Part shown: piece by piece, positions 4,000 through 57,064 of the stretch
Layout: every line of letters begins with the position of its first letter
Numbering within the stretch: the first letter of the stretch is position 1
Assembly (NCBI RefSeq): GCF_011634835.1
Contig: NZ_SIRP01000001.1
Location: 964,768 to 1,028,767 of the forward strand
DNA: 64,000 nt
Reading direction: 5' to 3'
Source of the DNA: Isoptericola sp. BMS4
Lineage (GTDB): Bacteria > Actinomycetota > Actinomycetes > Actinomycetales > Cellulomonadaceae
The notes under the pieces: generated by a model
The model's input: only the letters and a program-made list of their open reading frames with translations
The model's database searches: none
Told to the model about the DNA's origin: nothing
Made by a program: the position numbers and the translations under genes

Positions 4000-4031
4000 C
4001 ACGTCGCCCGTCCCGTCACGTGGCGGGATGA

Positions 4032-4067
4032 CGCGCCCGTACCGGCCGGCCGGCCGGTACGGGCGCG
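4032..4067 (+). terminator. Rho-independent terminator after the AGCS symporter gene
   Basis: A perfect 36-nt palindrome begins 32 nt after the stop codon and is followed by GCGTTTT, giving a GC-rich stem and a short U tract. This is the best-formed intrinsic terminator in the window. Confidence 0.8.
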
Positions 4068-4212
4068 GCGTTTTCACCCACGCGAGGGCGCGGGGACGTG
4101 TGCGGGTGGCCGGGGGTGTCCCTACCGTGAGGTCGACGGCGAGGTCGCCGTCCCGCCCGCGGTGCGCCGTCCGGCGCCCTGTGGTCGCGCTCAGGGAGAG
4201 GACGCCGACGAC

Positions 4213-29730: not shown

Positions 29731-29780
29731 CACGGCGAAGGCCCCGGACCCTCCTCACAGGGTCCGGGGCCTTCGCCGTG
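29731..29780 (+). terminator. Strong stem-loop terminator after clpC
   Basis: A perfect 22-bp inverted repeat (29731-29752 with 29759-29780) with a 6-nt loop, 27 nt after the clpC stop. No U tract follows, as is common for actinobacterial terminators. Confidence 0.75.
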
Positions 29781-39123: not shown

Positions 39124-39132
39124 CGCCTTCGC

Positions 39133-39182
39133 GAGTTGTCAGGTCCAGCGCGACGTATACCGCGCGCAGGGCCTGACAACTC
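39133..39182. repeat. 50-nt hairpin repeat, copy 2
   Basis: The ends GAGTTGTCAGG and CCTGACAACTC are perfect inverted repeats, with a partly paired middle and GTAT at the centre. It is oriented opposite to copy 3 (39314-39363), with which it shares about 45 of 50 positions when one is reverse-complemented. It likely terminates kdgK. Confidence 0.75.
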
Positions 39183-39189
39183 CCGGGAG

Positions 39190-39306
39190 GGCGGGTTCAA
39201 GCGGTCGTCGCAACACCTGATCTAGCGAGGGGTGTTGCGATGGGTGACCAACCGCCTACTCTTGACAGCCTGACGACGCGTGTTGCGACGACCGCTTGAA
39301 CCCGCC
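39190..39306. mobile_element. 117-bp MITE-like element with perfect 27-bp terminal inverted repeats
   Basis: Positions 39190-39216 are the exact reverse complement of 39280-39306 (key sequence GGCGGGTTCAAG at the left end). The trinucleotide GAG lies immediately outside both ends (39187-39189 and 39307-39309), consistent with a target-site duplication. The interior holds a second 8-bp pairing (39210-39217 with 39231-39238) and a 20-codon open frame from ATG 39240, but no transposase. It looks like a non-autonomous remnant of an insertion sequence; the parental family is unidentified. Confidence 0.65.
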
Positions 39307-39313
39307 GAGCGTC

Positions 39314-39363
39314 GAGTTGTCAGGCTGAGCGCGGGGTATACGTCGCGCTGGGCCTGACAACTC
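39314..39363. repeat. 50-nt hairpin repeat, copy 3
   Basis: It has the same 11-nt ends and GTAT centre as copy 2 but lies in the opposite orientation, on the other side of the MITE-like element. Its last bases overlap the stop codon of the LacI gene (39362-39364), so it probably forms the terminator of that gene. Confidence 0.75.
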
Positions 39364-54298: not shown

Positions 54299-54844
54299 AT
54301 GGCGGCGACGACGAAGGACTCGACGTTCTGGCGGCTGCTCTCCGAGCAGGTGGGCCACGAGCTGGCGGCGCACCAGCAGTACATGGCGATCGCCGTGTGG
54401 TTCGACGGCCACGACCTGCCCCGGATGGCGGCGCACTTCTACCGGCAGGCGCTCGAGGAGCGCAACCACGCGATGATGATCGTCCAGTACCACCTGGACC
54501 GGTCGCTGCCCGTGGCGATCCCGGGCACCCCGGAGGTGCGCAACGACTTCGCGGACGTCGTGGAGCCCCTGCAGCTCGCGCTCGACCAGGAGCAGCAGGT
54601 CACCGACCAGATCCAGGCGATCTTCCGCGCGGCGCGCGACGAGGGCGACGTGCTGGGCGAGCAGTTCCTGCTCTGGTTCCTCGAGGAGCAGGTCGAGGAG
54701 GTCGCCGCGGCGAACACGCTGCTCACGGTCGCCCGGCGCGCCGGGGACAACCTGTTCGACCTGGAGAACTACGTCGCCCGGGAGGCGATCGGCGACGGCG
54801 GCGAGTCCGCGGACGCCCCGAAGGCCGCCGGCGGCGCCCTCTAG
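54299..54844 (+). CDS. Ferritin (non-haem, Ftn type)
   Basis: 181 residues of four-helix-bundle ferritin. Ferroxidase ligands are Glu21 (QVGHELAAHQQY), Glu54 and His57 (LEERNHAMM), Glu98 (LALDQEQQ) and the Glu in FLEEQVEE near 130. There is no haem-binding Met pattern. It stores iron as ferric mineral and limits oxidative damage. The C-terminal 20 residues are Gly/Ala-rich. A remarkable double palindrome follows the stop. Confidence 0.94.
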   Translation: MAATTKDSTFWRLLSEQVGHELAAHQQYMAIAVWFDGHDLPRMAAHFYRQALEERNHAMMIVQYHLDRSLPVAIPGTPEVRNDFADVVEPLQLALDQEQQVTDQIQAIFRAARDEGDVLGEQFLLWFLEEQVEEVAAANTLLTVARRAGDNLFDLENYVAREAIGDGGESADAPKAAGGAL

Positions 54845-54857
54845 CCTCACCCTGCCC

Positions 54858-54979
54858 GCTGTGGGTACGACGATGGCGAGGAATCGGGCCCGATTCCTCG
54901 CCATCGTCGTACCCACAGCTGTGGGTACGACGATGGCGAGGAATCGGGCCCGATTCCTCGCCATCGTCGTACCCACAGC
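54858..54979. repeat. Two perfect 60-bp palindromes in tandem
   Basis: Positions 54859-54918 and 54919-54978 are identical 60-mers, each a perfect palindrome without a loop (arms begin CTGTGGGTACGACGATGGCG, centre GGGCCC). The outermost G and C at 54858 and 54979 extend the symmetry. Each unit alone would make a very stable hairpin on either strand. Position between the convergent ferritin and GH67 genes suits a bidirectional terminator, but the duplication is unusual. Confidence 0.9.
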
Positions 54980-54991
54980 GACCGGGCGCGG

Positions 54992-57064
54992 TCAGTAGAT
55001 CGTCCGCCCGCGGGCATCGAGGATCCCGGACTTGCGGAAGAAGTACGTGGTGAGCTGGTCCCGCCACTCGACCGCCGAGCGCAGCTGCTCCGCGAGCCGC
55101 TCGCGCACACGGGCGGCGACGTCGTCCGGCACCTCGCCCGCGACGTCCTCCCAGCGCCGGACCATCGCCTCGACACGTTCGACGCCGGCGAAGTGCGTGT
55201 CGTAGACGTGCTGGATCACCGTGGACCCGCTGTGCAGCACGTGCGTGTACGGCACGTGGTGGAAGAACAGCAGCAGCTCGTCGGGGCAGGTCTCCACCGA
55301 CTCGTAGACGTCGCGCCACGGCGCCGGGTACTGGCCGGTGTACCCCGTGCCAGTCGCGCGGGTGCGGTCCACCCCGACCCCGTCGCGGTCGGCGAAGTGG
55401 TACGTGCCCCAGGGGGTGTACTCGTACCCGTCGACGTCCGGCCCGTAGTGGTGGCCGGGGCGCACCATGAAGCCCACGCCGAGCGGCGCCGTGTACAGCT
55501 CGTAGGTGGCCCACGAGTCGTCGAGGATCGTGTGCAGCGTGGAGCGCAGGAGCGTCGACGCGTCGGGGAAGGTCTGCGTGATCCACTCGTCGAGCACGTC
55601 GAGCGCGTCGAGGGTCGGATCCCAGGTCAGGCGTCCGTACGCGTAGAGGTTGGCCTGGGCGAGCGGGTGCCCGGTCCAGAAGCGGTCGCCGCCGACGTTC
55701 GAGACGGCGGCGAACCCGCCCGAGGCGGCGACCTCCTCGGCGAGGGCGGGCGTGTCCTCGCCGCGGAACCGGAACCCCAGGACCTCGGCCCACGCCGGCC
55801 CCAGGTAGACGGCGTGCCGCTGCTGGCCGGTGTACTCCTGGGTGACCTGCAGCTCCAGCGCGACCCGCGTGCGCGGCATCGCCGCCAGCACCGGCGAGAC
55901 GGGCTCGCGCACCTGGAAGTCCATCGGGCCGTGCTTGACCTGCAGCACGACGTTCTCGGCGAACCGGCCGTCGAGCGGGGCGAAGTGGTCGTACGCGGCG
56001 CGCGCCCGGTCCGTGGACCGGTCGCGCCAGTCCTGGCGGTGGTCGTAGACGAACGCCCGCCAGTGCACGAGCCCGCCGTGCGGGGCGACGGCCTCCGCCA
56101 GGAGGTTGGCCCCGTCGGCGTGGTCGCGGCCGTACGCGAACGGGCCGGGCTGGCCCTCCGAGTCCGCCTTGACGACGAACCCGCCGAAGTCGGGGATCAG
56201 CGTCCAGACGGCGGCCGCGGCGTCCCGCCACCAGGTGCGCACGTCGTCGTCGAACGGGTCGGCGGTGGGCAGGCCCCCGAGCGTCATCGGCGCCGCGAAG
56301 CTCACCGCCAGGTGGGTGCGCACGCCGTACGGGCGCAGCGCGGCCGCGACCCTCGCGACCTCGGGCAGGTCGTCGGTGAGGAGGCGCGCCTCGCGGGCGT
56401 GCACGTTGACGTTGTTGATGCAGGCCCGGTCGACGCCGACGGAGGCGAGGAGCCGTGCGTACGCCGTGGCGCGGGAGAGGTCGGTGCGCACCCCGCCGTC
56501 GTCGTAGAAGATCGATCCGCCCGCGTAGCCCCGCTCCACCTGGCCCATCACCGGGTGCACGTCGACGTTGTCCCAGTGGTCGAGCATCCGCAGCGCCGCC
56601 GCCGGGGCGTGCGTCTCGTCGGCGTCCGGGGCCGCGAAGGCGGACTCCTCGAGCCGGACGACGTGGAAGAACCCGTGCAGCAGCGACGTCGCCGTCACCG
56701 CGGTCACCGTGACCTTGCCGTCGGTGCGCCGCAGCCGGAACCCCTCGACCGCGCCGTCGGGCTCCGCCTCGGGGACCTCGGGGTCGGTGAGCAGGAGCAC
56801 GAGGTCCGGTGACTCGTCGGCGGTGACGACGGCGCCGCCGTGCGCGATCGTCGCGGCGGTGATCTCGCCGTGCAGCGCCTCGAGCACCTCGGCCGGTCCG
56901 TCGGGCCCCGGGGGCGGCACGCGGCCCGGGTCGGACAGGTCCGCGAGGGCGACGCGGCGCCGGCCGACGGCGGCGAACACGGCGTCGGGGAGCCATGCGG
57001 GGTGCGGCGCCGGGAGCGCGGTGGCGTCCTCGGCGTCCTGGGTGACGTTGTCGACAGCAACCAT
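54992..57064 (-). CDS. Alpha-glucuronidase (GH67)
   Basis: 690 residues, the usual size for GH67. It removes (4-O-methyl)-alpha-D-glucuronic acid from xylo-oligosaccharides. Key segments: AALRMLDHWDNVDVHPVMGQ, VERGYAGGSIFYDDG, FGGFVVKADSEGQPGPFAYGRDHADGA (with the general-acid Glu), and GPMDFQVREP together with LELQVTQEYTGQQRH (the Asp/Glu pair). Most of these match the family's catalytic barrel. No signal peptide, so it is intracellular. ATG 57064 is used; a much longer reading upstream only shadows the dctM gene. It is the last gene of the uronate operon. Confidence 0.95.
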   Translation of the reverse strand: MVAVDNVTQDAEDATALPAPHPAWLPDAVFAAVGRRRVALADLSDPGRVPPPGPDGPAEVLEALHGEITAATIAHGGAVVTADESPDLVLLLTDPEVPEAEPDGAVEGFRLRRTDGKVTVTAVTATSLLHGFFHVVRLEESAFAAPDADETHAPAAALRMLDHWDNVDVHPVMGQVERGYAGGSIFYDDGGVRTDLSRATAYARLLASVGVDRACINNVNVHAREARLLTDDLPEVARVAAALRPYGVRTHLAVSFAAPMTLGGLPTADPFDDDVRTWWRDAAAAVWTLIPDFGGFVVKADSEGQPGPFAYGRDHADGANLLAEAVAPHGGLVHWRAFVYDHRQDWRDRSTDRARAAYDHFAPLDGRFAENVVLQVKHGPMDFQVREPVSPVLAAMPRTRVALELQVTQEYTGQQRHAVYLGPAWAEVLGFRFRGEDTPALAEEVAASGGFAAVSNVGGDRFWTGHPLAQANLYAYGRLTWDPTLDALDVLDEWITQTFPDASTLLRSTLHTILDDSWATYELYTAPLGVGFMVRPGHHYGPDVDGYEYTPWGTYHFADRDGVGVDRTRATGTGYTGQYPAPWRDVYESVETCPDELLLFFHHVPYTHVLHSGSTVIQHVYDTHFAGVERVEAMVRRWEDVAGEVPDDVAARVRERLAEQLRSAVEWRDQLTTYFFRKSGILDARGRTIY

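Follow-up and report, generated by a model that had tools for sequence, protein, structure and literature searches.

The window, a 64,000-bp stretch of DNA from Isoptericola sp. BMS4, lies within a 4.32-Mb contig of a genome recorded as 4,433,416 bases in 47 contigs. In it, a ferritin-like gene and a GH67 gene converge on a 60-mer that is present twice, head to tail, with 100% identity (54858–54917 and 54918–54977; Table 1). A sequence-only reading had described the pair as identical loopless 60-bp palindromes between convergent ferritin and GH67 genes. The repeat identity and the gene context, the latter by Pfam matches, were both borne out, but the loopless perfect palindrome formed by each unit is 62 bp long, the two units overlapping by 2 bp ('GC', common to both), and the perfect palindrome spanning the whole pair measures 124 bp rather than the 122 bp given. 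The arm pattern occurs 4 times in the window and 0 times in 100 shuffles of it, so that the element is not a product of chance, and Rfam 15 returned no match above the gathering score anywhere in the window.

Table 1 Features of the ferritin–GH67 gap, in window coordinates.
Feature	Position	Strand	Remarks
Ferritin-like gene (PF00210)	54299..54844	+	13 bp from stop codon to element
62-bp palindromic element, first assembled copy	54858..54919	.	Arms 54858-54879 and 54898-54919, centre 54880-54897; from the window palindrome and the family anatomy
Second assembled copy, judged a false duplicate	54918..54979	.	From the exact 62-bp sides and the simulation
124-bp palindrome (2 x 62 bp)	54857..54980	.	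Almost certainly the footprint of two contig ends, k-1 = 62
GH67 gene (PF07488, PF07477)	54992..57064	-	12 bp from assembled pair to stop codon

The perfection of this DNA had been taken to imply a recent origin, an active maintenance mechanism or an assembly artefact. For the tandem doubling, the record together with a simulation points almost certainly to the last. Specifically, four sites of the BMS4 genome are doubled: the window site, C1:1189257 and C1:1427921 are direct doublets, each a perfect palindrome with 62-bp arms, and C1:1316056 holds two copies split by exactly 100 N. Both units are identical and loopless at each of the four, and exactly 62 bp of palindrome stands on either side of every junction, eight ends in all (at the N-gap site, the 62 bp per side were counted directly from the sequence), despite single-copy palindromes with expected lengths of 64 bp at the window site, 76 bp at C1:1189257, 68 bp at C1:1427921 and 66 bp at C1:1316056. 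This common length is k-1 for k = 63. When de Bruijn contigs of single-copy models were simulated, the k = 63 contigs laid end to end matched every base of the record at the window site (922 bases), C1:1427921 and C1:1189257, as they did with 100 N added at C1:1316056; with k set to 55, 61, 65 or 71, other lengths were left, or one contig. It is the constant 62 bp per side, in the face of differing palindrome lengths, and the reproduction of the record by simulation that lead us to judge the doubling an artefact.

In the course of events that we propose, an assembler working at k = 63 would branch on meeting a perfect palindrome longer than k-1, each contig would retain k-1 = 62 bases of it, and the two contig ends, joined end to end, would yield a false tandem pair; the genome itself would carry one 62-bp palindromic element at the window site. 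The k = 63 simulation also branches at C1:924893 and C1:2399686, where loopless copies of 62 bp stand single in the record; both contigs share the whole 62 bp there, and an ordinary overlap join would be expected to give one copy. The pair does stand in the sequence record, as real DNA left by a recent duplication would, yet such a duplication is highly improbable in view of the eight ends of exactly 62 bp, found at four sites whose palindromes differ in length and one of which has 100 N, and of the base-for-base match of the simulated contigs. The relatives argue the same way: no doublets, that is, no pairs about 60 bp apart, occur among the matches listed for other genomes, which are complete for G017 (45 copies on one contig) and partial for several others. 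A caution follows for assemblies in general: a perfect palindrome that exceeds the assembly k-mer in length may enter a finished record as a false tandem pair with palindromic ends of length k-1.

The single 62-bp element is real. BLAST located it at 25 places, equal to 21 sites, in the BMS4 genome, and a looser pattern added a full copy at C1:1409132, so that single units of the kind first noticed in the window occupy 22 sites in this genome and have counterparts in relatives. The looser pattern also returned two possible half-copies (C1:188264 and C1:3918651), which are uncertain because 2 mismatches were allowed and the control had 2 matches per strand. Single copies measure 58 bp in 14 of 18 cases and 57 bp in the other 4. 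A codon-usage gene finder, applied to 24 loci with the two half-copies included, called 15 of them convergent, 9 tandem and none divergent; one of the 15, C1:550164, actually lies inside an ORF, the end of which is overlapped over 22 bp by the copy at C1:549673. At the tandem loci, the element starts 10–18 bp past the upstream stop codon in eight cases and 86 bp past it in one.

This element belongs to a large family whose members lie immediately past genes in related bacteria and whose sequence 'dialect' differs from lineage to lineage. A BLAST search with the BMS4 element found matches in 1 of 38 genomes, its own, and none in 37 relatives, which suggested a repeat confined to one species; this is ruled out by other dialects within the KipA gene of relatives. 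The KipI–KipA fusion gene of BMS4 has one in-frame copy inside. At the same position, five relatives carry an in-frame insert of other sequence and ten have no insert; in G015 the contig ends before the site, and G005 gave no match. The inserts are clear TGTGAGCGGA-type hairpins in G001, G014 and G007, a diverged one in G006, and one with no clear hairpin in G004. The linker at the insert site differs between species, and no target-site duplication is readable there. The KipI–KipA linker contains, in addition, a perfect 60-bp palindrome unrelated to the element (L038, about 4014–4073; G000:C1, about 550713–550772).

A TGTGAGCGGA-dialect pattern that allowed 48–72 bp matched 42 places in 5 of the 18 genus genomes, 40 of them at exactly 58 bp. 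The general pattern TGTGNG-N45..47-CNCACA, run against a reversed control in the 18 genus genomes and in G019, a member of another genus, gave at least 10 matches in 12 of the 18 (matches/control: BMS4 38/5, G017 61/2, G014 32/1, G002 32/4, G005 31/4, G011 29/4, G008 22/2, G012 21/1, G007 18/4, G016 18/5, G015 12/1 and G006 10/2) and 24/4 in G019. Counts in G001, G003, G004, G009, G010 and G013 were near those of the control, with four of the G001 matches real. Across 121 genomes of the bacterial family, an exactly-58-bp pattern had any match in 45 and at least five matches in 14 (controls at most 3), the latter spread over six genera, that of BMS4 and five others; G042, G058 and G116 are represented by exact-58-bp match counts only, without sequences.

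The element is absent or almost so in several species, and after acs it is present in BMS4 only and absent in 16 of 17 genomes, most of which have other hairpins there; it is thus not required. Following acs, CCGGAGCGAGC-type repeats occur in five relatives (L132, L133, L135, L141 and L142), some in tandem, and the corresponding place in G009 (L138) is taken by a perfect hairpin of other sequence with 29-bp arms, followed by a partial repeat. After the ferritin gene, a longer, diverged palindrome is found in G001 and nothing of the element kind in G009 and G014. An origin from phages or plasmids was rejected, as viral contigs gave five stretches with one core-pattern match each and four plasmid records had a partial 28-base match only. 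Searched across 84,980 species, the BMS4 core matched once each in 37 stretches from unrelated records, among which the BMS4 genome itself may figure, a number near the chance expectation of about 30 obtained by arithmetic. On the single contig of G017 (G017:C1, 3.58 Mb), 1 of 45 exactly-58-bp copies lies between 1.40 and 2.17 Mb; copies are possibly sparse away from the origin, the location of which is assumed. An element pair exactly 552 bp apart, start to start, occurs in both G014 (L245) and G007 (G007:C256:3532-4141), with different centres, and may perhaps represent one shared locus with conserved spacing.

Members of the family measure about 58 bp from TGTG to CACA, or 62 bp with flanks, and consist of two arms of about 22 bp, conserved at their ends, and a centre of about 18 bp that varies. 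Their anatomy was compared in 108 loci fetched from five genomes (40 of the 45 places in G017, 17 in G008 with one flank piece left out, 19 in G014, 17 in G019 and 15 in G016), from which 109 elements were kept, each 57–59 bp long and paired at 15 or more of 20 arm positions, and two G016 loci dropped. The length is 58 bp in 107 of these 109, a proportion biased by the choice of the G017 and G008 loci from a 58-bp list; in G017, 61 matches fall at 57–59 bp and 45 at exactly 58 bp, and up to 16 copies may be 57 or 59 bp long. Length is nearly constant, not fixed. Of the two flanking bases, those on the left read GC or GT in 105 of 109 elements and those on the right GC or AC in 102, and the closing bases are C-G in 55, T-A in 38, T-G in 7, C-A in 4 and others in 5. 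Since these closing bases pair, the unit extends over about 62 bp.

Arm positions 1–20 are almost uniform within one genome, and centres mostly differ among its copies. At arm positions 11–15 and in the centre, bases that differ between copies match within a copy in G014, G017, G019 and G016. In G008, agreement at arm positions 11–15 is about the same within copies (0.933) as between them (0.929), and that of the centre (0.43 and 0.37) is near random, with the arms near invariant. For the 40 G017 copies, five covariation measures exceed 500 of 500 shuffles and all slid versions, the structure having been drawn from the same sequences and the shuffles leaving relatedness in place. The artefact thus accounts for the doubling, while the perfection within a copy reflects pairing that is the family norm and that covaries between copies, which argues that something maintains it. 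Folded as RNA, the 62-nt unit reaches -61.2 kcal/mol (z -12.4). In the sense RNA of tandem copies, G-U and A-C mismatches number 12 versus 12 in the arms and 28 versus 30 in the centres; over 27 positions in all copies they number 32 versus 31, and 9 versus 2 in copies with at least 6 of 9 centre pairs, a cut-off set after the fact. Some G017 centres are near-identical in distant copies (7 pairs at 15/18 or more), and the few centres nearly shared in G017 and in G019 indicate that some copying did occur.

In BMS4 and the five sampled relatives, the element stands mostly just 3' of stop codons, often in convergent gaps. The 109 elements from the relatives comprise 58 in convergent gaps, 36 in tandem gaps, 13 inside predicted ORFs and 2 in divergent gaps, and most lie at most 60 bp from the stop codon of the gene ending there (farthest, 284 bp). 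For comparison, the window has 35 tandem, 9 convergent and 8 divergent gene pairs, so that convergent gaps are over-represented among the elements. Apart from KipA, genes with an open in-frame copy are MoeA, where G001, G014 and G017 have it at the same codon, a YjeF_N/Carb_kinase gene, a GH20 gene, a HisKA_3 kinase and an AMP-binding ligase; the remaining ORF cases look ambiguous or resemble gene-finder errors. Of the 8 further convergent gaps in the window, 3 also contain hairpins. One gap called convergent has, at 29731–29780, a perfect hairpin with 22-bp arms and a 6-nt loop; another, at 39130–39363, has two imperfect palindromes of about 50–56 bp with GAGTTGTCAGG..CCTGACAACTC ends, which lie about 180 bp apart and perhaps form another palindrome family.

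Arm types follow genomes. BMS4 uses TGTGGGTACG, to which the arms of G019, from another genus, are close; G001, G007, G014 and G015 use TGTGAGCGGA, G005 TGTGAGCGGGCG, G011 TGTGAGCGCG, G002, G016 and G017 TGTGGGCATG, and G008 and G012 TGTGGGTGCACG, G012 having also one other type. Many sites are common to several species, and flank comparison yielded 60 cross-genome pairs of matching positions, and 47 under stricter rules with both copies at 58 bp; these pairs, having sites in common, are not independent, and in a few cases not all can be true orthologues (two G008 copies are matched to one G016 copy). Mean identity in the 18 same-type pairs is 0.92 for arms and 0.55 for centres. In the 29 different-type pairs it is 0.495 and 0.32, and the arm identity lies within 0.08 of that of random copies in all 28 pairs having a random value. 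Independent insertion at a favoured position could account for some of these dialect differences. In a tree of acs and KipA with a midpoint root, BMS4 adjoins G003, G004, G005, G006 and G011 (group 97; split joining BMS4 81), and the G001 group falls outside this group. Most many-copy relatives around BMS4, G003 and G004 having too few copies to count, carry TGTGAGCG-type arms, matching sites included. With TGTGAGCG types on both sides of BMS4 in the tree, a dialect must have been exchanged or have arisen more than once.

We lean towards a reading in which the element is a REPIN-like bidirectional 3'-end hairpin with arms that track a putative trans-acting factor. Each hairpin would end or protect the transcripts of the flanking genes, and the arm sequence would follow the specificity of the factor, all copies in a genome changing dialect together. 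Uniform arms combined with diverse centres are hard to obtain via recent copying or gene conversion, because the centre would be carried along, and easier to obtain if something recognises the arms and not the centres. Arm-only recognition, taken with the 3'-end position and the hairpin, is what makes us prefer a 3'-end signal with a co-evolving factor to a selfish element, two options that are not mutually exclusive. The double bidirectional terminator envisaged in the sequence-only reading loses its 'double', while the position suits a single bidirectional 3'-end hairpin. The 8 sense nucleotides downstream of the 36 tandem copies contain 7% T and no T-tract, which counts against a terminator, and a strong one would hardly be expected inside coding genes, where some copies lie (KipA, MoeA and others).

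It is possible, if doubtful, that the family instead consists of selfish REPIN-like miniature elements, moved as single-stranded hairpins by a putative non-RAYT enzyme, with copies surviving mainly 3' of genes because insertions elsewhere are harmful. Such elements would fit the REPIN-like anatomy, the patchy spread across genera and species, the in-frame copies in KipA, MoeA, YjeF/Carb_kinase, GH20, histidine kinase and AMP-ligase genes and the near-identical G017 centres in distant copies, but sit less well with centres that mostly differ between copies of one genome and with the many sites common to several species. Mobilisation by RAYT is unsupported: the corresponding domain (Y1_Tnp, PF01797) was found in 0 of 18 genus genomes, not in G019, and in 1 of 38 genomes overall (G037), with controls positive in 5 of 14. 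A double-stranded site with two half-sites at set spacing, bound by a sequence-specific protein such as a roadblock or nucleoid protein where genes converge, appears improbable. Base-by-base reading of DNA needs no match within a copy, so the within-copy matching of copy-variable positions (the closing pair, arm positions 11–15 in four of five genomes, and the centres) counts against it, even though conserved end blocks, nearly constant spacing and a variable centre are what such a site would have, as are the near-random centre and near-invariant arms of G008. The arm ends may resemble lac operator halves and the ends of Tn7.

The boldest reading is a dialect system of REPIN-like kind without RAYT, in which a putative factor, possibly exchangeable by horizontal transfer, would recognise or rewrite tens of hairpins at long-conserved gene ends, the whole set switching arms in place. 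We consider this reading rather unlikely. If the overall picture of the family holds, it offers a natural series, with tens of sites per genome, several dialects and shared sites, in which to ask what keeps dispersed hairpins uniform within a genome and in what way sites and their recognition evolve jointly, in bacteria that gave no match to the REPIN-linked enzyme. A literature search, mostly outside subscription journals, returned no description of the element family, which is apparently undescribed.

Among known systems, REPINs have nearly the same anatomy as the element (PMC3116915), so that the REP-like role allowed for in the sequence-only reading holds for the anatomy but not for the RAYT gene linked to REPINs, which was not found. 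Inverted conserved ends, a variable spacer of set length and the capacity to fold, which mark a REPIN, are all present in the element, its length being nearly constant. Further shared traits (PMC3116915, PMC3733652) are compensatory changes in the hairpin, genome-specific types, and a location mostly in convergent or unidirectional gaps with some copies within genes; REPs have the same bias towards convergent and unidirectional gaps (PMC3733652). By contrast, the element forms one long continuous stem with TGTGRG ends, whereas a REPIN consists of two short REP hairpins with GTAG-type tags. REP stems carry GTAG- or CGTC-type tags (PMC3733652), neither of which was found at the element. Also unlike REPINs, the element carries different arm types at matching sites in different species and occurs in a genus without RAYT (PF01797).

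The element resembles intrinsic terminators in being a GC-rich stable hairpin mostly a few tens of bp past stop codons, and differs from them in lacking a T-tract, in arms shared genome-wide, in a nearly constant length and in copies inside genes. Rickettsia palindromic elements are likewise palindromic repeats that also occur in frame within coding genes; the element described here is shorter, and its copies lie mostly after genes, not within them, in several dialects across species. The DNA uptake sequences of Neisseriaceae number thousands of copies, and their inverted pairs can serve as terminators. The present element, conversely, occurs in tens of copies and, in the searches made, only as full palindromes. 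What the two have in common is the lineage-specific dialects of a repeated sequence, which PMC3630211 describes for the uptake sequences and which we find in this element.
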